Assembly (NCBI GenBank): GCA_902598525.1
Contig: CACKBZ010000004.1
Coordinates: forward strand, 1-64,000
Direction of reading: 5' to 3'
DNA from: an uncultured Bacteroidota bacterium
Lineage (GTDB): Bacteria > Bacteroidota > Bacteroidia > Flavobacteriales > Flavobacteriaceae
DNA: 64,000 nt
This document shows positions 6,314-59,287 of the stretch, piece after piece. Both the position numbers and the translations under genes were made by a program. Under the pieces are notes generated by a model, which saw only the letters and a list, made by a program, of their open reading frames with translations, made no database searches and was not told the DNA's origin. Position 1 is the first letter of the stretch; every line of letters begins with the position of its first letter.

Positions 6314-8680
6314 CTAGTAATCACATGAAAAATCTCCAATTGGAGATCCATCAGGAATTTTAGTCTTTTCAATTGGTATATATTGGTTAGGGTTAGCATA
6401 AAAGCCATTTATTTTTGTAATCAAGAAATCATTATACTCAGATCTATTTTTCATTAAATAACTCATTAAATTATTGATTCTAGAATATATCTTAGATTTT
6501 GAAATGTCATTAGTTTGCTTATTATTATAAGCCATAAATAAATGATCTAAAAATAAAGATTGGGTATTTTTATTGATGGAATTCTCATATTCATTCATTT
6601 TTATTTTCTTAAAAATAGAATTCTGAATTTCATTAAGATAGTCTTCAAGAGATAAAATCTTTCTTCCAAACATATTCTGCTGATGAACCCTATTTAATCT
6701 TTCTGGATTTAACATATAAGTAAAGACATGATTAATAATTGCACTTGATGCATTTATATAATCAAACCCAACACCAGTATTTGAAATAAAGTTTTCTCTA
6801 GTCCTTGGATTCCTAAAAGATCTTGGACCTAGAATCTCAATTAAGTTTTGCGGAATGGTTAGACTAGATGGATCAATAACTTTAAGAAGGGAATTTAATG
6901 ATTTAATTTGCAAATCTTTATCAGCAAACCTTACCTTATCACTTCTGTCATTTTTTACATAATATAGATAATCTATACCTCCAATAGCCTTTGCTGTTGC
7001 TTCAATTTGATATCTATGTAACATATATATAGGAACCATTATGTCTTCAATTCTATCGTAGGGTTCACCATTTTTTAAGTTATCCAAATCAAGATTCATA
7101 AGGGCTTGTTTTCTAACTTTTAATAACTTGTCAAGCTCTTTATATGCAAGATCTCCATTATCCCATAAATGAGAGTATGGATTTGCACTACTAACTGGTC
7201 TTGAATCAGAGTCACTTATATAGTACAAACCATTTTCAACAGCATCATCTAAGATTTTGTTAAGTTCTTGATCTTCATTAATTGAGTTTGAAAAATCAGA
7301 GTACGCATACTGAACACTTACTTTATCCCAATCTCCAATATCTTTTGCATATGCATTATCAATATTTATCTGATTGTCTATATATGAAATTTTTGGGTGT
7401 GGATAATCCATTACTGAAACCCTATTATTAGCACTAGAAATAAAATTATGACCAAAACCAAGAGTATGTCCAATTTCATGTGCAGATAGTTGTCTAATCC
7501 TATCTAAAGAAGTTTCTTTTATTAATTTTTTATTTTCTTCTGTATTTGGATTATCTATTAACCCACTGAGAATCATATAATCTTGCCTAACTCTTAAGCT
7601 TCCTAAACTTACTTGACCTTTTATAATTTCACCTGTTCTTGGGTCAACAATACTAGCTCCATAACTCCAACCTCTAGTTGATCTATGAATCCACTGAATT
7701 AGATTATATCTCACATCCATTGGATCAGCATCTTCAGGTAAAACCTCAATTCTAAAAGCATTTTTATATCCAGCACTTTCAAATGCCTGATTCCACCAAT
7801 TCCCTCCTTCAATAAGTGCAGACTTTACTGGCTCTGGTGTTCCGTTGTCTATATAGTAAATAATTGGTTCAATTGGCTCACTTATTAATTGATCAGGATA
7901 TTTTTTATTTAATCTATGTCTGACTATAAACCTCTGCTCTAGACTTTCATCGATTGGAGTTGAATAATCATAAACTATGAAAGGATTACTTCCGCTTCTA
8001 GGGTCAAATTTTCTTTTTTTATAGTTATTATCAGGAAGTTCAACAAAAGAATGATGCTGATTCACAGTAATATTTGATGGAGTTGGAGTAACACTTCTAA
8101 CAAGGTTGCCCGTGGGATTACCAGTGAAAGTCAAGATTACATCAAATTCTATATTTTTTGGAAAGGCTTTTGTTCTATCAAGTTCAATTGCAGACATTAA
8201 TTTATTTAAAGAATAATTACCAGAATTAGAGTACCTTAATCTTTCTGCAACACCATGAGCATCATTAATAAGGAGAGGAGTTAAGTCTATTACGTAATTA
8301 TTATTTTTTTCTTCAATTATTTCAAATGAAAATAACACAGATCTTGCAAAAGCTTCCTCAACAGCCCTATTTTCAAGATAATTATTAGAATTAGAAACAT
8401 ATTTAGTATTAGGTTGAATTAATAAAATTTTATTTCCTCTTTTAGTAAAAAAAACTATTCTAGTATTACCAAGTTGACCTCTATCTAGTCCCAGATCATT
8501 GTTTCCAATTCCTCTACTTAATGAATTTATATATAAAAACTCTTTATCAAGATTATTTACCTCAAGATGAATTTTACCTAAATTACTACTGTAAGAAAAA
8601 TTCATAAATCCTTCAAAATCAATATTTTGAGAAAATATAAAATTTGAAAATATTATTGTAGTAAATAGTATTTTTTTCAT
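6314..8680 (-). CDS. secreted zinc metalloprotease, DUF5117/DUF5118 (EcxA-like) family
   Basis: 788 residues with a signal peptide (MKKILFTTIIFSNFIFSQ) and no lipobox. The catalytic zinc site is explicit: HEIGHTLGFGHNF at 401-413, a metzincin-like HExxHxxGxxH, followed by VMDYPHP around 424 as the Met-turn. The N-terminal part (residues 30-250) corresponds to the DUF5118/DUF5117 regions seen in large Bacteroidota metalloproteases, with LGLDRGQLG and the VRHRLNKK stretch. A helical C-terminal region follows. Characterised members of this broad family are few, and periplasmic or outer-membrane protein degradation is the reasonable guess. It is transcribed on its own, ending 18 bases before the probable end of the capnine operon promoter region. 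Confidence 0.87.
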   Translation of the reverse strand: MKKILFTTIIFSNFIFSQNIDFEGFMNFSYSSNLGKIHLEVNNLDKEFLYINSLSRGIGNNDLGLDRGQLGNTRIVFFTKRGNKILLIQPNTKYVSNSNNYLENRAVEEAFARSVLFSFEIIEEKNNNYVIDLTPLLINDAHGVAERLRYSNSGNYSLNKLMSAIELDRTKAFPKNIEFDVILTFTGNPTGNLVRSVTPTPSNITVNQHHSFVELPDNNYKKRKFDPRSGSNPFIVYDYSTPIDESLEQRFIVRHRLNKKYPDQLISEPIEPIIYYIDNGTPEPVKSALIEGGNWWNQAFESAGYKNAFRIEVLPEDADPMDVRYNLIQWIHRSTRGWSYGASIVDPRTGEIIKGQVSLGSLRVRQDYMILSGLIDNPNTEENKKLIKETSLDRIRQLSAHEIGHTLGFGHNFISSANNRVSVMDYPHPKISYIDNQINIDNAYAKDIGDWDKVSVQYAYSDFSNSINEDQELNKILDDAVENGLYYISDSDSRPVSSANPYSHLWDNGDLAYKELDKLLKVRKQALMNLDLDNLKNGEPYDRIEDIMVPIYMLHRYQIEATAKAIGGIDYLYYVKNDRSDKVRFADKDLQIKSLNSLLKVIDPSSLTIPQNLIEILGPRSFRNPRTRENFISNTGVGFDYINASSAIINHVFTYMLNPERLNRVHQQNMFGRKILSLEDYLNEIQNSIFKKIKMNEYENSINKNTQSLFLDHLFMAYNNKQTNDISKSKIYSRINNLMSYLMKNRSEYNDFLITKINGFYANPNQYIPIEKTKIPDGSPIGDFSCDY

Positions 8681-8737
8681 AATTAATTTTTTGGAAATAT
8701 AATTTTTTTTTTTGAGATCATATAATTAATTTAAATC

Positions 8738-9821
8738 ATGTTTTCTAAAGAAAATTTAAAAGGAATTAAAAAACGTATTGATACGTTAAGGGGGTTTCTT
8801 TGACCTTGAATCTAAAGAGACAATTCTTTCTAACTTGGAAATTAAAGCTTCTGAACCAAGTTTCTGGACCAATCCTAAAGATGCAGAAAAAGTTGTCAAA
8901 GAAATACAGCAAATTAAATCTTCCATATCTGAATTTAATATTTTAATCACTAAATATGATGATATGACCGTTCTAGCTGAATTTTTCTTAAATAAAGAGA
9001 TTAGTGAAAATGAGATAAACGAATCATATAATCAATTAGAGAGTCTTATTGAAAATATGGAATTTAAAATGATGCTTAGTAAAAAAGAGGATTCTATGTC
9101 TGCAATTCTGCAGATTACTGCTGGAGCGGGTGGAACTGAATCTTGTGATTGGGCTGAAATGCTCTTTAGAATGTATTTTATGTGGGGTGAAAAAAATAAT
9201 TTTAAAATTAAAGAGCTTAATAGTCAACCTGGTGATGTTGCTGGAATAAAAACTGCAACGATTCAAATTGATGGGGACTTTGCCTTTGGATGGTTAAAAG
9301 GAGAAAATGGTGTTCATAGATTAGTAAGAATTTCACCTTTTGATAGTAATGCAAAAAGACACACCTCTTTTGCTTCTGTATATGTATACCCACTTGTTGA
9401 TGATTCAATAGAAATTAAAATAAACCCCTCAGATCTATTATGGGAGACTATGAGGTCTGGAGGAGCTGGTGGTCAAAGTGTGAACAAATTGGAGACGGCT
9501 GTTAGACTTAAGCATAAACCGACAGGAATCACTGTTGAAAACTCAGAAACAAGATCGCAATTAGATAATAAACAAAAAGCACTAATGCTTCTAAAATCTC
9601 AGCTTTATGAGATTGAGATTCAAAAAAACAACGAGGAAAGAAAAAAAATTGAAGAATCTAAGAAAAAAATTGAGTGGGGATCACAAATTAGAAATTATGT
9701 ATTACATCCATATAAAATTATAAAGGATGTTAGAACAGGTCATGAATCAGGAAATACTGAGGCAGTACTAAACGGAGACCTCAATGAATTCTTAAAGTCA
9801 TTTCTTTTAAAAGGAAATTAA
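8738..9821 (+). CDS. prfB: peptide chain release factor 2 (programmed +1 frameshift)
   Basis: RF2, which releases peptides at UGA and UAA. The first 21 codons run from the ATG at 8738 to an in-frame TGA at 8801-8803. A +1 shift after CTT (8798-8800) moves to GAC at 8802 and continues to the stop at 9821, giving about 360 residues, the normal RF2 length. The SPF discriminator tripeptide (residues 199-201) and the catalytic GGQ (244-246, in [14 protein letters not shown]) are both present. RF2 therefore controls its own synthesis: low RF2 at the UGA favours the frameshift. Annotation pipelines may start this gene at the TTG at 8835 and lose the N-terminal helix. It converges on dnaB with no gap (stop at 9821, dnaB stop at 9822). 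Confidence 0.96.
8789..8804 (+). promoter_or_regulatory. prfB recoding site
   Basis: The site reads AGGGGG TTT CTT TGA C: a Shine-Dalgarno-like AGGGGG, three bases, then the slippery CTT and the UGA followed by C. It differs from the classical E. coli site only at the codon before CTT (TTT instead of TAT). It is one of very few strong SD-like sequences in the window. Confidence 0.93.
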
Positions 9822-53497: not shown

Positions 53498-54298
53498 ATG
53501 ATTACAAATAACATTAAAAAGGATAAATTTTTAGTAGTTTCAGGACCATGTGTTATTGAGGGAGAGGATATTGCTTTTAAAATAGCAGAAAAGTTAGTTT
53601 CTATATGCTCAAAACTTTCATTACCAATTGTTTTTAAAGGTAGCTACAGGAAAGCTAATAGGACTCGTCTAGATAGTTTTACAGGAATTGGTGATACCAA
53701 GGCTTTAAAAATACTTGGAGCTATTGGTTCAAAATTTGAAATCCCAGTTACTACAGATATCCATAGTTCAGTTGAAGCAAAGATGGCAGCTGAATATGTG
53801 GATATAATTCAAATACCTGCTTTCCTTGCCAGACAAACTGATATTTTAGTTAGTGCTGCAAAGACAGGTAAAGTAATTAATATTAAAAAAGGACAATTTA
53901 TGAGTTCAGAAAGTATGAAGCATGCAGTTGATAAAGTAGTTGAATCTGGAAATCAAAAAGTAATGCTTACTGAAAGAGGAACACAATTTGGATACAATGA
54001 TTTAATAGTTGACTTTAGAGGTATCAGTGAGTTAAAAAAACTGGCTCCAACAATATTGGATGTTACTCACTCAGTTCAGAAACCTAATCAAACTTCAGGA
54101 ATTACAGGAGGAAATCCAGAATATATTGAGTCACTGGCAAGAGCGGGTATTGTTAATGGTATTGATGGAATTTTCTTTGAAACACATACTGATAGATCTA
54201 AAGCCAAAAGTGATAGCGCAAATATGTTTGACATAGATAAAGTTGAAGATCTACTAGTAAATCTTTTATCTATAAGAGAAGCCACATCTAAATTTTAG
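53498..54298 (+). CDS. kdsA: 3-deoxy-8-phosphooctulonate synthase (KDO8P synthase)
   Basis: 266 residues of the DAHP/KDO8P synthase barrel: VVSGPCVIEGEDIAFKIAE, KGSYRKANRTRLDSFTGIG, VTTDIHSSVEAKMAAEYVDIIQIPAFLARQTDIL and NIKKGQFMSSESMKHAVDKV. ERGTQFGYNDLIVDFR and ILDVTHSVQKPN follow. It joins arabinose 5-phosphate and phosphoenolpyruvate to make KDO-8-P for the LPS inner core. It follows ftsE on the same strand and ends 44 bases before tmRNA. Confidence 0.96.
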   Translation: MITNNIKKDKFLVVSGPCVIEGEDIAFKIAEKLVSICSKLSLPIVFKGSYRKANRTRLDSFTGIGDTKALKILGAIGSKFEIPVTTDIHSSVEAKMAAEYVDIIQIPAFLARQTDILVSAAKTGKVINIKKGQFMSSESMKHAVDKVVESGNQKVMLTERGTQFGYNDLIVDFRGISELKKLAPTILDVTHSVQKPNQTSGITGGNPEYIESLARAGIVNGIDGIFFETHTDRSKAKSDSANMFDIDKVEDLLVNLLSIREATSKF

Positions 54299-54310
54299 AC
54301 TTATTTATCA

Positions 54311-54318
54311 TATCTTTG
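54311..54318 (+). promoter_or_regulatory. possible -7 box for tmRNA
   Basis: TATCTTTG matches TAnnTTTG 24 bases before the mature 5' end, which would leave a short 5' extension removed by RNase P. A TTG-like -33 is not clear. Confidence 0.4.
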
Positions 54319-54342
54319 CAAATCTTTGTACTTTGAAATTTT

Positions 54343-54738
54343 GGGGTCGACTGGTTTTGACAGCAGGTCTAATTTAGTTATTTGCAAGTCGAGTGTTGAA
54401 AAAAATCTCGTAAATCTATTTTTCAAACTTTAAATGGCGAAAATAACTACGCTCTAGCTGCATAATTGACTGAATTATAGTAGGTCCATGCATATTTCAA
54501 CAAGGTTGAAAAGCTAGATATCTCATAAAAACTTTGATTGGCAGTTTTTATATTTGAGATACCATTAAGTTAATCTAGAGTTTTACAATCACTGGGTAAA
54601 ACTTAAAACTAAAAGTGATAAGGTTAATGTTATGGTTGCTATCTACCTAATATTTTCTCGAAAAATTAAAGATAGATAAACTTGTAGAAGGTAATTTAAT
54701 TACTTGTTTGGACGCGGGTTCGAGTCCCGCCGACTCCA
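54343..54738 (+). ncRNA. ssrA: tmRNA (transfer-messenger RNA)
   Basis: The 5' end GGGGTCG pairs with CGACTCC at 54731-54737, with discriminator A, and keeps the G3-U70 wobble by which alanyl-tRNA synthetase knows the molecule. The tRNA-like T arm is CGGGTTCGAGTCCCG. The resume/tag reading frame at 54436-54465 reads GENNYALAA then TAA, the known flavobacterial-type degradation tag. The middle part holds the pseudoknot-forming repeats, which I did not fold. It frees ribosomes stalled on broken messages with SmpB. Confidence 0.96.
54436..54465 (+). other. tmRNA tag-peptide reading frame
   Basis: GGC GAA AAT AAC TAC GCT CTA GCT GCA TAA encodes GENNYALAA, which follows the charged alanine and marks proteins for ClpXP-type proteolysis. 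Confidence 0.93.
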
Positions 54739-54912
54739 CTATTTATCAAATCATTAAAATACTTATCGTATTTATCATAATTTAATATTATTATATAGGA
54801 TATATTATCAAATCATTAAAATAATTTCATCTTTATGTTAAATAATTTTATTTAAATTCATTCTGAATAATTATTTATTAAATTCGCTGATCAGAAAAAA
54901 TTATACAATTAT
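54739..54912 (+). other. AT-rich gap with a 19-bp direct repeat
   Basis: 174 bases between tmRNA and the first secreted-family gene. TTATCAAATCATTAAAATA occurs at 54743-54761 and again at 54805-54823, spaced 62 bases start to start. The first copy begins 5 bases after the tmRNA 3' end. No promoter box with a full TAnnTTTG match is seen before the next gene. No terminator hairpin for tmRNA is visible. Confidence 0.8.
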
Positions 54913-55665
54913 ATGAGAAACTTATTATTAGCATTAGTTTTATTATTTACTGCTAGTGCATACTCACAATCAACTACTTGGATACCAATAGTTATCGAAG
55001 ATGGTAAGGATACAGAATATCTTGCTTACGAGAAAAACTGGATGAAAATAAATCAAGCATTAATTGATGCTGGTTACAGGACAGGATGGTCCGTTTGGAA
55101 AAGAACACCTAAAGAAGGTGATGATGGATGGGCTCAATATTATGTCGTTGTAGGAAATAATGATCAAAAGCAGCTAAGCCAAGATGAATGGCCTTCATTT
55201 ATTCAGGATGCACTTGGAAGAAACCAAAGAACAGTAGCTAAGATGATGGACAGCAGTGGTATTGTCTCAGAGGCAAGACCTATCCAACTCTCATGGGTTG
55301 GAGGAACAGTTTACGCTGGACCATCAATTAAACCAGGGGATAAGATGTATTTTCATTACATGACTCAACAAAATGATAATTTTGAAAGTCTAGAATTAAA
55401 TGTTTGGAGACCAATTGCTGAGGATCAAATTGTTGAGGGAATCAGGAAATTTTGGGGACTCGCAAAGGTAACTGAAAAAAGTGAAAATTTCCCTGGAGAT
55501 GCAACTCACGTTGCTTTTAATATAATGAATGGAGACACGTTTTCTCAAACACAAAGCTCAACTCCAAATTGGGATTACAACACAACACAGTTAATGAATC
55601 TAGTTCAAAATTCAAGAGAAATGTTAGAAGCAGAAGAGTTAACTTGTATTTATATAATTAATTAA
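54913..55665 (+). CDS. secreted tandem-paralog family, member 1 (unknown function)
   Basis: 250 residues with a signal peptide (RNLLLALVLLFTASAYSQ) and no lipobox, so periplasmic or exported. It is the most diverged of four tandem paralogs. Shared landmarks: an N-terminal beta-strand (TWIPIVIEDGKDTEYL), a helix, then GYRTGWSVWKRTPKEG, a second strand-pair with a stretch like YYVVVGNNDQKQL, PGDKMYFHYM near residue 155, and THVAFNIMN. The pattern is two ferredoxin-like (ABM-like) halves in one chain. I know no function. It begins an operon of four genes with short gaps (11, 19 and 17 bases). Confidence 0.7.
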   Translation: MRNLLLALVLLFTASAYSQSTTWIPIVIEDGKDTEYLAYEKNWMKINQALIDAGYRTGWSVWKRTPKEGDDGWAQYYVVVGNNDQKQLSQDEWPSFIQDALGRNQRTVAKMMDSSGIVSEARPIQLSWVGGTVYAGPSIKPGDKMYFHYMTQQNDNFESLELNVWRPIAEDQIVEGIRKFWGLAKVTEKSENFPGDATHVAFNIMNGDTFSQTQSSTPNWDYNTTQLMNLVQNSREMLEAEELTCIYIIN

Positions 55666-55676
55666 AAATAAAAAAC

Positions 55677-56426
55677 ATGAAAAATATATTATACTCATTA
55701 ATAGCTCTATTTTTCTCAACTACATTAAATGCGCAATTTTATTGGACTAGCGAACATGTTGTGCTAAATGAAGGAATGGAAGAAGAATATGAGAAGTTTG
55801 AAGAATTTTGGGGTGTTGCTAAAGAGAAGGCAATAGCCGATGGTATTCAAGCCGGGTGGTCAATCTGGAAAGTTGACCCAAGTAGTAACGACGATAACCC
55901 TTGGGCAGATTACATTATTGTAAATATTTATCAATCTAAAGAGCAAATGGATGCTAATGTTGATTGGATGCAAATAATTCAAGATGCTCATAAAGGAAAA
56001 ACCAAAAGATCAGTAATAAGAAAGTATATAAAAGAAAGTACAGAAAATAAGTATAGAGCTAGCTCTAGATCCTATACTATGCAAAGTATCTCTAATCTTT
56101 CTGAAGAGGGACTTGATCCTGAGGCAACAATTAAAGCAACATATATAGGTATGGAAGCATTAAATGATGACTATGTTGAATTTGAAAAACAATTTTTTAG
56201 AGAACAGCACAAAGGAAATAAATACTGGTGGGATTTATCTGAAATAATTGATAGGTCAGATAATGCATATAAACCAATTACACATTCAATTTTTGAAATT
56301 AATAAAGATAATTCTAACTCAGGTGGGACTGAACAATCTTTTACAAATGAGATGATGTATAAATATGGTATGGCTTCTCGTGAGATGCACGGATGGTTGC
56401 AACTTACATTTGTCATGGGGAAATAA
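55677..56426 (+). CDS. secreted tandem-paralog family, member 2 (unknown function)
   Basis: 249 residues, signal peptide ending LNAQ. The family layout is retained: WTSEHVVLNEGMEEEYEKFEEFWGVAKEKAI, then GIQAGWSIWKVDPSS, ADYIIVNIYQSKEQMDA, KGKTKRSVIRKY, and a second half with YVEFEKQFFREQHKG and ITHSIFEIN. In this member PGDxM is missing from the middle linker (EEGLDPEATIKATYIG stands there), the clearest deviation. The function is unknown. It lies 11 bases after member 1. Confidence 0.7.
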   Translation: MKNILYSLIALFFSTTLNAQFYWTSEHVVLNEGMEEEYEKFEEFWGVAKEKAIADGIQAGWSIWKVDPSSNDDNPWADYIIVNIYQSKEQMDANVDWMQIIQDAHKGKTKRSVIRKYIKESTENKYRASSRSYTMQSISNLSEEGLDPEATIKATYIGMEALNDDYVEFEKQFFREQHKGNKYWWDLSEIIDRSDNAYKPITHSIFEINKDNSNSGGTEQSFTNEMMYKYGMASREMHGWLQLTFVMGK

Positions 56427-56445
56427 TTAACTAAAATACAATAAA

Positions 56446-57228
56446 ATGAAAAAATTAATTTTAACACTAACAATATTATTTTCGATTTCAATTAATGCTC
56501 AATATGCAATTATAAGTGCAGTTGACATAAAAGAGGGAGCTGATGAGGGCTATCTTAAACTCGAGGAGTTTTTTGGTCCTATTCACGATGCTACAATTGA
56601 AGCTGGGGTACAGAACAGCCAAACAGTCTTTAAAGTAACATCGGAGGGACAAAATTCAGATTATCCTGACTACATAATTATTACAGGTTTTTCAAGCAAA
56701 GAACAATTAGCAGCTTACAATGAAAGCTGGTCCGGTGACGCTTGGACAAACTTTGCAAGAAGAGTTTATAGAGGTAAAATGTCAAGAGGTGCAATTACAA
56801 GGATGATGAGTTCAGTTGGTGATTACAGTAATGAGCGAAGAAATTATCATGTCGAATTAATTGATGCAACTCCATTTATTGGAGGTGATTGGAATCCTGG
56901 AGATAAAGCATCTATGAATCCAATGGTCAAGAAAAATGATGACTTTGAAAATTATGAAACAAAAGTTTGGATGCCCTTAATTCAGAAAGAAGTTATGAAA
57001 GGTAACCATGGTGGTTGGGCTTTCCTTAATATATATGAAAAGACTCCAAATGCCTATGAAAATTTAACCCATATGGTGTTTAACAAGCAAGTAAGTTCAC
57101 CTAATACTGATAATAGCGAGATGATGGAAACAATGAGTTCTTTCAAATATCAAAAGCTATGGGAAGGTCTTGAAGCATCAAGAGATATGTTAGATGCAAT
57201 AACTTTGGAAGTAATATCGTCACATTAA
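56446..57228 (+). CDS. secreted tandem-paralog family, member 3 (unknown function)
   Basis: 260 residues, signal peptide ending SINAQ. First half: YAIISAVDIKEGADEGYLKLEEFFGPIHDATIEAG, TVFKVTSEG, DYIIITGFSSKEQLAAY, then RGKMSRGAITRMM. Second half: NYHVELIDATPFIGGDWNPGDKASMN, a helix, NAYENLTHMVFNKQV. Members 3 and 4 are the closest pair, sharing long stretches such as RGKMSRxAITRM and NAYENxTHxxFN, and probably come from the most recent duplication. No catalytic signature is recognised. Confidence 0.7.
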   Translation: MKKLILTLTILFSISINAQYAIISAVDIKEGADEGYLKLEEFFGPIHDATIEAGVQNSQTVFKVTSEGQNSDYPDYIIITGFSSKEQLAAYNESWSGDAWTNFARRVYRGKMSRGAITRMMSSVGDYSNERRNYHVELIDATPFIGGDWNPGDKASMNPMVKKNDDFENYETKVWMPLIQKEVMKGNHGGWAFLNIYEKTPNAYENLTHMVFNKQVSSPNTDNSEMMETMSSFKYQKLWEGLEASRDMLDAITLEVISSH

Positions 57229-57245
57229 CAATTAAAATATAATTT

Positions 57246-58016
57246 ATGAAAAAACTAATTTTTTTATTTATACTACTTTTTTCAGTTAATTCTTTTAGTC
57301 AATATGCAATAGTAAGTGCAGTAGACCTTAAAGAGGGTTCCGAGTCTGAATATCTTAAGACTGAAAAATTTTGGGGACCACTACACAAGAGAGCAATTGA
57401 AGATGGAGTTCAAACTCAGCAAGCTGTTTGGAAAGTTATTCAAACAAATGATGAGAGAGAAAATCCAGCTGATTACTTTATAATTACAAGTTTTTCTAGT
57501 AAAGAACAGTTAGAAAATTACAGTTCGGCTGACTACGCTGCTTATGCCCAAGAAGTTTACAGGGGTAAAATGTCAAGAAGAGCAATTACAAGAATGTTTG
57601 AAAATTCTCCAAACTCAAGTAATGTTAGGAGAAATTATCATCTAGAAGCCGTATCTAGGACTATTCTTGCTGGCGGAGGTCTTGTACCAGGAGATAGAAT
57701 GAGCATTACCTCAACTATTGCTAAATCTGATGAATTTGAAACATGGGAAACTGAAATCATAAAACCAATGGTTGAAAAAGAAATTTTAATGGGACAGCAT
57801 AGGTATTGGGGTCTAGCTAAAATTTATGAAAGAACTGAAAACGCTTACGAGAATGCAACTCACTTTTTCTTTAACATTGGAGTCCCTGGTGTTCAAAGAA
57901 CTGGATGGCAAAAGCTAGGAAGTACTTTTAAAGGTCTAAAATTAAGAGAGGGAGTTCAATCTGCAAGTGAACATCAGAACTTTGTAACTCTTGAATTAGT
58001 ATCAATCCATAACTAA
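57246..58016 (+). CDS. secreted tandem-paralog family, member 4 (unknown function)
   Basis: 256 residues, signal peptide ending SFSQ. Half 1: YAIVSAVDLKEGSESEYLKTEKFWGPLHKRAIEDG, AVWKVIQTN, YFIITSFSSKEQLENY. Half 2 after PGDRMSI: FETWETEIIKPMVEKEILMGQHRYWGLAKIYERTENAYENATHFFF. The repeated strand-helix-strand-strand-helix-strand order in each half is what a fused dimeric alpha-beta barrel would give. Such folds bind small hydrophobic molecules or heme in other proteins, but none is indicated here. It is the last gene before the terminator at 58041. Confidence 0.7.
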   Translation: MKKLIFLFILLFSVNSFSQYAIVSAVDLKEGSESEYLKTEKFWGPLHKRAIEDGVQTQQAVWKVIQTNDERENPADYFIITSFSSKEQLENYSSADYAAYAQEVYRGKMSRRAITRMFENSPNSSNVRRNYHLEAVSRTILAGGGLVPGDRMSITSTIAKSDEFETWETEIIKPMVEKEILMGQHRYWGLAKIYERTENAYENATHFFFNIGVPGVQRTGWQKLGSTFKGLKLREGVQSASEHQNFVTLELVSIHN

Positions 58017-58040
58017 TAAACCAATTTTTATTAGAAAAAA

Positions 58041-58071
58041 ACCCGCCTTTATGGTGGGTTTTTTATTTTTG
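58041..58071 (+). terminator. intrinsic terminator of the four-gene operon, overlapping mscS promoter
   Basis: The arms ACCCGCC (58041-58047) and GGTGGGT (58053-58059) flank TTTAT, with one G-T pair, and a long T-run follows. The T-run contains TATTTTTG at 58064-58071, a match to the TAnnTTTG -7 box for the mscS gene, whose ATG lies 4 bases later. Confidence 0.9.
58064..58071 (+). promoter_or_regulatory. TAnnTTTG -7 box for the mechanosensitive channel
   Basis: TATTTTTG within the terminator T-run, 4 bases before the ATG at 58076; the message would be leaderless. Confidence 0.5.
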
Positions 58072-58075
58072 TAAA

Positions 58076-59287
58076 ATGTTTAAAGATCAAATTTTAGAGT
58101 TTCTTAATAATTATGGAGTTCCAAATGGCTTTTCAAATCTATTAGCTTCAGGACTAATTTTCATATCAATTGTATTAATAGTTTTAATAATTAATTTTAT
58201 TGGTAGAATAATAATATTATCATTTTTTAGAAGAATTGCAAAGTCTACTGCTAACGCTTTTGATGATTTATTAATAAAAAATAAAGTTCCTAGACTATTA
58301 TCATTTGTTCCATCATTGTTTTTTCTGTTTTGGATTATACCAATATATAATGAAGATTTATTAATAATATTGGAAGCTTTAACAATAATCCTCTTTATTG
58401 TAACAGTGAAGTCTGTATTAGGCACAGTCAAGGATTATTTTAAATTAAGTTCCTCATTAAAGCATATACCAATAGATAGTTACATTCAAGTAGTAATGCT
58501 ATTTCTTTGGTTTATTGGTATAATTCTAATATTATCGGTTCTTACTGGCAGAGAAATTGGTACTTTTCTTGCATCTCTTGGTGCATTATCAGCAATAATT
58601 ATCCTTGTATTCCGAGATACGATACTTGGATTTGTTTCAAGTATTCAAATTACAGTAAACGATACAGTAAGAATTGGGGATTGGATTACTATGAAGGGAT
58701 CTGATGCAGATGGTACGGTCATAGAAGTTAATCTTTCTACAGTTAAGGTTCAAAACTTTGACAACACCATTACTACTATACCAACATATAAACTTGTGTC
58801 TGATTCATTTATTAATTGGAGAGGCATGGAGGAGTCAAAGGGTAGAAGAATCAAAAGATCATTACTTATTAAGCCCAGTTCTGTAAAGTTTCTGGAAAAT
58901 GATGATATTGAAAAGCTAAAAAAAGTTGATTTAATATCAGATTATATTAAATCCAGAGTTAAAGAGATTAATAACCATAATACAAAGAATAATATTGATA
59001 AGTCAATGCTCTTAAATGGAAGGAATCTGACCAATTTAGGATTATTTAGAGTTTATGTTGAAAAATATTTAAAGAATCATCCGATGACTAATGATAATTT
59101 GACTTTAATGTGTAGACAACTAGAGCCGACTTCTCAGGGTATTCCTATTCAGATCTATACTTTTTCAAAAGACAAAGAATGGACAAAATATGAGGGTTTA
59201 ACCTCTGATATTTTTGACCATCTTCTATCTTCTGTTAAATATTTTGATTTAGAATGTTTTGAACTAAATCAAAGTATTTCTAGTTAA
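58076..59287 (+). CDS. mechanosensitive channel, MscS family (YbdG-like)
   Basis: 403 residues. Several N-terminal membrane helices (about residues 18-45, 75-100, 130-155) precede the pore helix ASLGALSAIIILVFRDTILGFVSSIQI. The cytoplasmic beta domain follows, with VRIGDWITMKGSDADGTVIEVNLSTVKVQNFDNTITTIPTYKLV. SFINWRGMEESKGRRIKRSLLI is typical of the YbdG branch. It releases pressure in hypo-osmotic shock. Its 3' end overlaps the Asp-box protein gene by 8 bases. It is separated from the four paralogs by the terminator, so it is an independent unit. Confidence 0.92.
   Translation: MFKDQILEFLNNYGVPNGFSNLLASGLIFISIVLIVLIINFIGRIIILSFFRRIAKSTANAFDDLLIKNKVPRLLSFVPSLFFLFWIIPIYNEDLLIILEALTIILFIVTVKSVLGTVKDYFKLSSSLKHIPIDSYIQVVMLFLWFIGIILILSVLTGREIGTFLASLGALSAIIILVFRDTILGFVSSIQITVNDTVRIGDWITMKGSDADGTVIEVNLSTVKVQNFDNTITTIPTYKLVSDSFINWRGMEESKGRRIKRSLLIKPSSVKFLENDDIEKLKKVDLISDYIKSRVKEINNHNTKNNIDKSMLLNGRNLTNLGLFRVYVEKYLKNHPMTNDNLTLMCRQLEPTSQGIPIQIYTFSKDKEWTKYEGLTSDIFDHLLSSVKYFDLECFELNQSISS

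Follow-up and report, generated by a model that had tools for sequence, protein, structure and literature searches.

The first 64,000 nucleotides of contig CACKBZ010000004.1 from an uncultured member of the Flavobacteriaceae (GenBank assembly GCA_902598525.1), hereinafter the window, contain an array of four tandem genes located behind the transfer-messenger RNA (tmRNA) gene ssrA. The initial annotation, made from the nucleotide sequence alone, took these genes for secreted paralogues outside any described family, and none of the searches reported here assigns them to one. The family that they represent is, according to structural models, a pseudo-dimeric alpha+beta barrel contained in a single chain; it appears to be exported and occupies, behind ssrA, a site where the number and provenance of its members differ between genomes of the same genus.

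The gene array behind ssrA

The four open reading frames (ORFs) jointly span positions 54913-58016 (Table 1), with stop-to-start gaps of 11, 19 and 17 bases and, being so tightly spaced, are presumably co-transcribed. The arrangement recognized at the outset, namely four same-strand genes encoding 249-260 amino acids (aa), separated by 11-19 bases and following a tmRNA gene, is borne out by the ORFs, ARAGORN and Rfam. The strong terminator that had been proposed to close the array corresponds to the longest stem among the 6 sites found by a hairpin scan of positions 54200-58200, compared to the 1.4 sites expected from shuffled sequences.

Table 1. Features of the ssrA-mscS interval in the window
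Feature	Coordinates	Strand	Evidence or remarks
tmRNA gene (ssrA), tag GENNYALAA; flanks the array on the left	54343..54739	+	ARAGORN and Rfam RF00023
Gene 1 (P0001, 250 aa), putative exported double-barrel family member	54913..55665	+	subfamily common to other genera
Gene 2 (P0002, 249 aa), same predicted fold	55677..56426	+	closest relatives at other loci; usual locus in own genome without gene 2
Gene 3 (P0003, 260 aa)	56446..57228	+	genus-specific last-type clade
Gene 4 (P0004, 256 aa)	57246..58016	+	genus-specific last-type clade; structure modelled
Intrinsic-terminator-like stem-loop, 12 pairs and T run	58036..58064	+	hairpin scan
MscS-type channel gene, right neighbour	58076..59287	+	PF00924, E 2.1e-17; not claimed as part of the system

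Farther out, a gene of the DAHP-synthase family (PF00793), which we take to be KdsA-like, lies to the left of the tmRNA gene, and a gene for a sortilin/BNR-repeat protein lies beyond the MscS gene, on the opposite strand. A 22-base direct repeat (95%) directly follows the tmRNA 3' end, at 54743-54764 and 54805-54826. An integrative island at ssrA was considered because tmRNA genes often serve as integration sites, as described in one account of such elements (PMC11915505). This candidate was rejected for the window: within 54650-58250, the ssrA 3' end takes part in no direct repeat of at least 16 bases, and the window ORFs include no additional gene of integrase size between ssrA and mscS.

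Predicted fold, export and conserved residues

The kinship of the four genes is not due to chance because gene 4, used as the query, retrieves genes 3, 1 and 2 at E-values of 4.6e-69, 5.7e-29 and 1.0e-25, respectively, the corresponding identities being 46%, 28-29% and 26-27%. Searches of Pfam, NCBIfam, PADLOC and PHROGs yielded only chance-level matches for the four proteins (PADLOC, nothing at E up to 1), and a PDB sequence search produced nothing meaningful for gene 4 or for profiles of 28 and 46 members; gene 4, the only query used against a plasmid collection, had no match there. In Pfam, no convincing match was obtained for 4, 28 or 46 members scanned: the match common to two of the 46 is DUF6614 (E 0.014), and the lowest E-value among the scanned members, 0.0029, connects one of them to an unrelated repeat family. 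An ABM match was listed neither in Pfam, for the four genes and 46 relatives, nor in NCBIfam, likewise, and the alignment of 46 relatives had no NCBIfam match at all. Nor is the family described in the literature that we searched, which comprised open-licence papers only and is no proof of absence.

For comparisons across genomes, we used profile A3, which consists of 46 signal-trimmed sequences from 69 references and the window genes, with near-duplicates, weak relatives and sequences containing X left out. The seven weak relatives, which had scored in an iterated search with signal peptides included, fall into separate clusters and were excluded. Three of these (L048:6107-6832, L038:14463-15227 and L043:7145-7885; L numbers denote loci) make up a second exported family without a name, about 245 aa long and with a KTKxYN motif, that is encoded near members of the main family, their kinship to which is unproven; the other four (L055:11245-11925, L048:6911-7612, L049:9040-9747 and L051:733-1395) make up a third such family, of about 230 aa, from similar genomes. 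For each of the two, one member was scanned and had no Pfam match.

AlphaFold2 models were made for genes 4 and 2, with genes 1 and 3 represented through the common alignment. The gene 4 model, from 28 sequences, has a predicted local distance difference test score (pLDDT) of 88.9 and a predicted template modelling score (pTM) of 0.83; the values for gene 2 are 87.3 and 0.82. Both models are single-chain double ferredoxin-like alpha+beta barrels in which the order strand-helix-strand-strand-helix-strand, in outline, occurs twice. When the halves of the family profile are compared in hhalign, they align at 98% probability, with a pairwise E-value of 1e-13, whereas the controls gave 0.3% for the reversed C-terminal half and at most 0.08% for an unrelated profile. 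Judging by these alignments, the two halves are homologous and derive from internal duplication, and the family is, going by the models, a pseudo-dimeric alpha+beta barrel in one chain. Two ferredoxin-like domains that form one barrel, the hallmark of the dimeric alpha+beta barrel (DABB) superfamily, are thus seen in the models of two of the four proteins; no match to a Pfam member family of this superfamily was found among the 4, 28 and 46 members scanned. The two ferredoxin-like, ABM-like halves that had been read from the sequence are therefore recovered in both the models and the profiles, and neither a strong whole-protein match to a characterized family nor a model lacking the duplicated fold, the two outcomes named at the outset as speaking against this description, was encountered. 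The smaller motifs fared less evenly. The PGDxM linker reported for three of the four chains is reduced to a PGD common to three, with the full motif only in genes 1 and 4; the recurring W-K strand reads F-K in gene 3; and the TH..FN strand of the second half reads TH..FE in gene 2.

Structural comparison with VIA-align placed the same entries on top for both models: 2pgc, sulfur oxygenase reductase (SOR), 3gn6, 3mcs, 3f44, 5f9p and 9kdp, at Z 14.1-16.1 for gene 4 and at Z 13.5-15.5 for gene 2. DyP, HemQ and HmoB follow at Z of about 10-11, below the 2pgc/SOR/ABM group, and the bacterial chalcone isomerase is also among the fold matches, at Z of about 10-11 with a root-mean-square deviation (rmsd) of 6.5. 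When the halves are aligned, E40 is paired with E168, P45 with P174, G54 with G183, position 59 with W188, K63 with K192 and Y77 with H206 (P0004 numbering). Among these, W188 is conserved in 146 of the 147 aligned rows, G54 in 141/147 and E40 in 128/147.

The haem alpha+beta barrels are placed in the same superfamily in the classification given by one source (SCOP 3000089, Pfam clan CL0032; PMC7611857), and the matches to HemQ, DyP and HmoB, along with the near-invariance of His206 in the core clade (68/69 rows), would fit periplasmic proteins of this fold that bind haem or depend on haem or a porphyrin for catalysis, akin to IsdG, Cld/ChdC or DyP. The proximal haem histidines that are tabulated for this fold in another source, however, sit on helices (PMC4835899), and haem is unlikely because the ligands in that table are helix histidines, whereas the sole conserved histidine of the family is located on a strand in the P0004 model and is conserved in the core clade only, where no other histidine reaches 85%. 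The haem-free two-domain group also scores 3-6 Z units higher, and we give the haem hypothesis very little credence.

The high structural rank of SOR (2cb2, Z 15.9 and 15.4), combined with the close spacing of the paralogues, which is seen in pairs elsewhere too, suggests another alternative, namely, that the paralogues co-assemble in the periplasm as the subunits of a large hollow or lattice-type complex resembling that of SOR. The identity to SOR is only 6-8%, however, with the match limited to the common barrel, and the array, with its 1 to 6 genes (see below), speaks against a fixed stoichiometry. Furthermore, there is no cysteine in the products of genes 2, 3 and 4, and gene 1 encodes only Cys245, near the C-terminus. 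SOR catalysis depends on a cysteine; genes 2-4 lacking any candidate for it, SOR chemistry is unlikely, and an assembly of this kind appears quite improbable. The iron site of SOR consists of two histidines and one glutamate; judged by residue conservation across the 147 aligned rows, no such set is conserved throughout the family.

Each array chain opens with a signal-peptide-like stretch that, judged by eye, ends in [AS]-Q, in agreement with the signal peptides originally assigned to all four. Of the 147 aligned members, 146 have Gln immediately after this signal-peptide-like start, the cleavage site again being placed by eye. Under the Bacteroidetes Q-rule, as outlined in one source, signal peptidase I exposes a Gln, which is then cyclised, in proteins destined for the periplasm or beyond (PMC5837995); because signal peptidase would expose the Gln here as well, the proteins are expected to act in these compartments. 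There is no lipobox, given the lack of cysteines other than Cys245 of gene 1, and no added C-terminal domain, the chains finishing with the last strand of the barrel. The proteins are most likely soluble and periplasmic, and the surface structure that was among the roles initially envisaged gains no direct evidence.

Turnover of the array and distribution of the family

Of the 25 genus genomes, 20 were inspected at the array locus, which lies on a single contig in 19. At these 19 loci, the array consists of one member in 1 genome (L122), two in 13, three in 1, four in 3 (including the window) and six in 1; one of the two-gene arrays, L119, begins near a contig end and could be longer. A gene of the MscS similarity cluster comes after the array at 20/20 loci, and 17 of the 19 single-contig loci have a tmRNA gene; in L118 and L119, none was found before the nearby contig end. 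Beyond these 20 genomes, G390, G398, G403 and G412 carry family members at other sites, and no match was obtained for G391. A gene that we take to encode an ABC-F-like protein lies at the tmRNA side of the array in L116, L118 and L120, so the interval also takes in unrelated genes.

To place the array genes, we rely on a quick maximum-likelihood tree of 147 rows, with Shimodaira-Hasegawa-like approximate likelihood ratio test (SH-aLRT) support only and many long branches that leave the deeper relations unsure. Seven loci that repeat genomes already represented were removed from the tree, and from the neighbour counts given below, L125 (a contig fragment of G400 with a split array) was removed as well; loci from one genome or genus are not independent. 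Two sister clades joined with support 91 are confined to the genus, one containing the first type of array gene (20 rows) and the other the last type (25 rows). Because all 13 two-gene arrays have a first-type gene in front and a last-type gene behind it, this pair is likely to be the ancestral state. The window array lacks the first type and carries the last type twice, as genes 3 and 4, and its four genes are spread over three clades. The clade of gene 1 (7 rows, support 99) unites it with array members from L033, L034 and L126 and with genes that occur singly in other genera. Gene 2 belongs to an 11-row clade (support 100), the other ten members of which are outside ssrA arrays. Given this composition and the variable array size, the single dedicated system of four proteins that was initially suggested finds no support.

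What, then, is the provenance of gene 2? In L037 and L177, a gene of its type and another family member are located between YceI- and esterase-like genes and two genes for SnoaL-like lipoproteins; at the same site, L039 has the gene-2 type only, and L180 and L181 have only the other member, whereas in L038, L182 and L183, the gene-2 type is found among different neighbours. The genome to which the window belongs retains this neighbourhood to either side on contig C8 (L199:8422-9508; ten genes in all, 52-85% identity) but lacks the esterase and both family members there, and the gap between the YceI-like and SnoaL-like genes is 37 bases. Since this home site is empty and its surroundings are retained, gene 2 probably moved into the array from its usual site; the alternative is that it is an old duplicate surviving only in the array. 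Members of the gene-2 type are also found beside, or at most two genes from, what we take to be an alpha-amylase-like gene in L040, L053 and L055, which come from other genera or records.

Recombination within the array is suggested by L033, where two divergent genes, 2 and 4 (6429-7202 and 8001-8768), share 84 of their 90 initial bases; in successive 30-base windows, 29, 30 and 25 bases are identical, followed by 18 and 17, a pattern that could reflect a swapped export signal. Gene conversion was also considered as a general process in the arrays and was set aside, being clear only in L033 when the 5' ends of all array pairs were compared. The turnover, the gene capture and this 5' exchange would also fit a variable repertoire of surface or secreted proteins, involved in adhesion, antigenic variation or evasion of predators or phages, in which turnover itself is selected. 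We find this improbable: the four genes have putative orthologues in other genomes at 77-91% identity, so the members are not hypervariable, and the lack of a C-terminal extension and of a lipobox cysteine, as well as the empty PADLOC search, argue in the same direction.

At larger distances, the family is patchily distributed. With the genome of the window included in each count, profile A3 matches 24/25 genomes of the genus and 26/247 sampled genomes of the phylum at E 1e-3, and 73/397 sampled genomes of the family Flavobacteriaceae at E 1e-5, the other 324 having no match at that threshold. The genome of the window, 79% complete, has six copies; genomes of the genus have 0-8, with a median of 4. 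Copy number falls with assembly size (Spearman -0.48 over the 73 matching family genomes): at least three copies are found in 16 of the 31 matching genomes under 2.3 Mb but in only 1 of the 42 larger ones, which average 1.2 copies. The family-wide counts come from the best 7 candidates per genome and are lower bounds, and A3, built largely from small-genome members, favours these; the small-genome assemblies are 0.8-2.1 Mb, and many are incomplete. The hosts are probably marine, going by isolate names. The variable array size, including the single gene of L122, the many genomes with no match and the low copy number in larger genomes could all be accommodated if this were an ordinary uncharacterized exported family, with copies neutrally duplicated and lost in a permissive stretch between genes. 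Yet, the concentration of copies in small genomes is the opposite of what chance would produce under shrinkage, and no internal stop was reported among the matches listed for the genus, so we regard neutral turnover as unlikely.

Possible function and relation to known systems

We propose, with roughly even chances of being right, that the family consists of exported small-molecule binders or cofactor-free enzymes that diversify via duplication and capture. Under this hypothesis, signal peptidase would expose the N-terminal Gln and the proteins would act in the periplasm or beyond; a cavity lined by the pseudo-symmetric positions 59/W188, Y77/H206 and K63/192 of P0004 would bind or convert small hydrophobic or aromatic molecules, with no haem involved; the paralogues would differ in specificity; and within the genus, the ssrA-mscS interval would serve as the site of duplication, loss and capture of members. 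Cofactor-free enzymes of the ABM type, which have this fold, likewise handle such molecules with no haem bound. The ligand binding entertained in the initial annotation is still the best guess.

The genomic context offers a lead. SnoaL/NTF2-like exported proteins, which represent another small-molecule fold, are encoded within two genes of family members at 17 of the 82 non-array loci (5 of the 17 from one genus synteny group), and they become less frequent with distance (16/179 genes at distance 1 versus 4/207 at distances of at least six). A first SnoaL profile had picked up lipoprotein signal sequences, and these counts come from a version with the signals trimmed off; the association is a lead only. 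The L037 locus encodes a flavodoxin-fold reductase, a pyridine-nucleotide oxidoreductase, a Rieske ring hydroxylase, a second Rieske protein, an esterase and YceI, the last named via a cluster-mate in L180; these neighbours, which are not seen for other subfamilies, hint at oxidation of aromatic or isoprenoid compounds. The 82 non-array loci contain 12 adjacent same-strand pairs of family members; in 10 pairs, the genes are no more than 30 bases apart. A few genes away from family members in larger Flavobacteriaceae genomes (L058:12383-14631, L059:6480-8825, L153 and L157), SnoaL-like genes surround another exported unnamed protein, which in L157 (1690-2454) has no Pfam match.

Several observations weigh against the proposed function. 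The SnoaL profile was seeded from neighbours, which biases the distance trend, and several of the SnoaL-like proteins have no Pfam match or one below the curated cut-off. No partner gene is present at every locus, and no enzyme neighbour explains the array. The orientation of the paired positions towards the cavity is deduced from strand alternation rather than from coordinates. His206 is found in only 88/146 rows overall; W occupies position 59 in 116/147 rows and in the first two array genes, genes 3 and 4 having Q there; and at position 192, the family varies between K, E, N and R (K, E, N and K in genes 1-4). No catalytic residue set or metal-ligand set is conserved family-wide among the 147 rows, and the radical chemistry proposed earlier likewise finds no direct evidence. 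The varying cavity positions may indicate different specificities or a non-catalytic role.

The binder-or-enzyme hypothesis can be extended, more tentatively and with the odds somewhat against it, to a complete scenario: an undescribed extracytoplasmic double-barrel family would have expanded in small-genome, probably marine Bacteroidota, with a collecting site behind ssrA where paralogues were duplicated, lost, captured and, once, re-joined at their export signals, to serve as species-specific periplasmic handlers of small molecules. What seems unusual here is the export, the expansion in small genomes and the variable array that appears to have taken in an outside gene. Small-genome Bacteroidota keep up to 8 copies of a family for which we found neither a name nor a function, and the predicted fold, the conserved residues, the natural series of 1-to-6-gene arrays and the one probable relocation allow direct tests of both the function and the evolution of the array. 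Should the substrates turn out to be dissolved aromatic, lipid or quinone-like compounds, an unrecognized step in cell-envelope carbon turnover would come to light.

Among known structures, the top match, tied with SOR, is PDB 2pgc, an uncharacterized protein from an uncultured marine organism (jcvi_pep_1096685590403), with Z 16.1, 199 aligned residues and rmsd 2.9 for P0004 and Z 15.5, 193 residues and rmsd 3.3 for P0002; it differs from the family in being shorter (203-206 aa), with 6-8% identity and no sequence match, and we know of no function for it. SOR (2cb2, 6qo0, 6qpa and others; Z 14.4-16.1) resembles the family in having two ferredoxin-like domains in a single chain but is larger (307-310 aa), at the same 6-8% identity, and is an iron- and cysteine-dependent cytosolic enzyme. 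Fused ABM-like halves are also present in the putative monooxygenases 3f44 and 3mcs, the anthrone oxidase-like 5f9p and PenE (9kdp), at Z 13.7-15.3; these two-domain proteins differ from the array family in that identity is 5-12% and the family has no Pfam ABM match. DyP, chlorite dismutase, HemQ/ChdC and HmoB belong to the same superfamily, but with lower Z (about 10) and a helix histidine that is not conserved in the array family. Thus, the fold is already known, whereas the family itself, its export and the turnover of its array look new.

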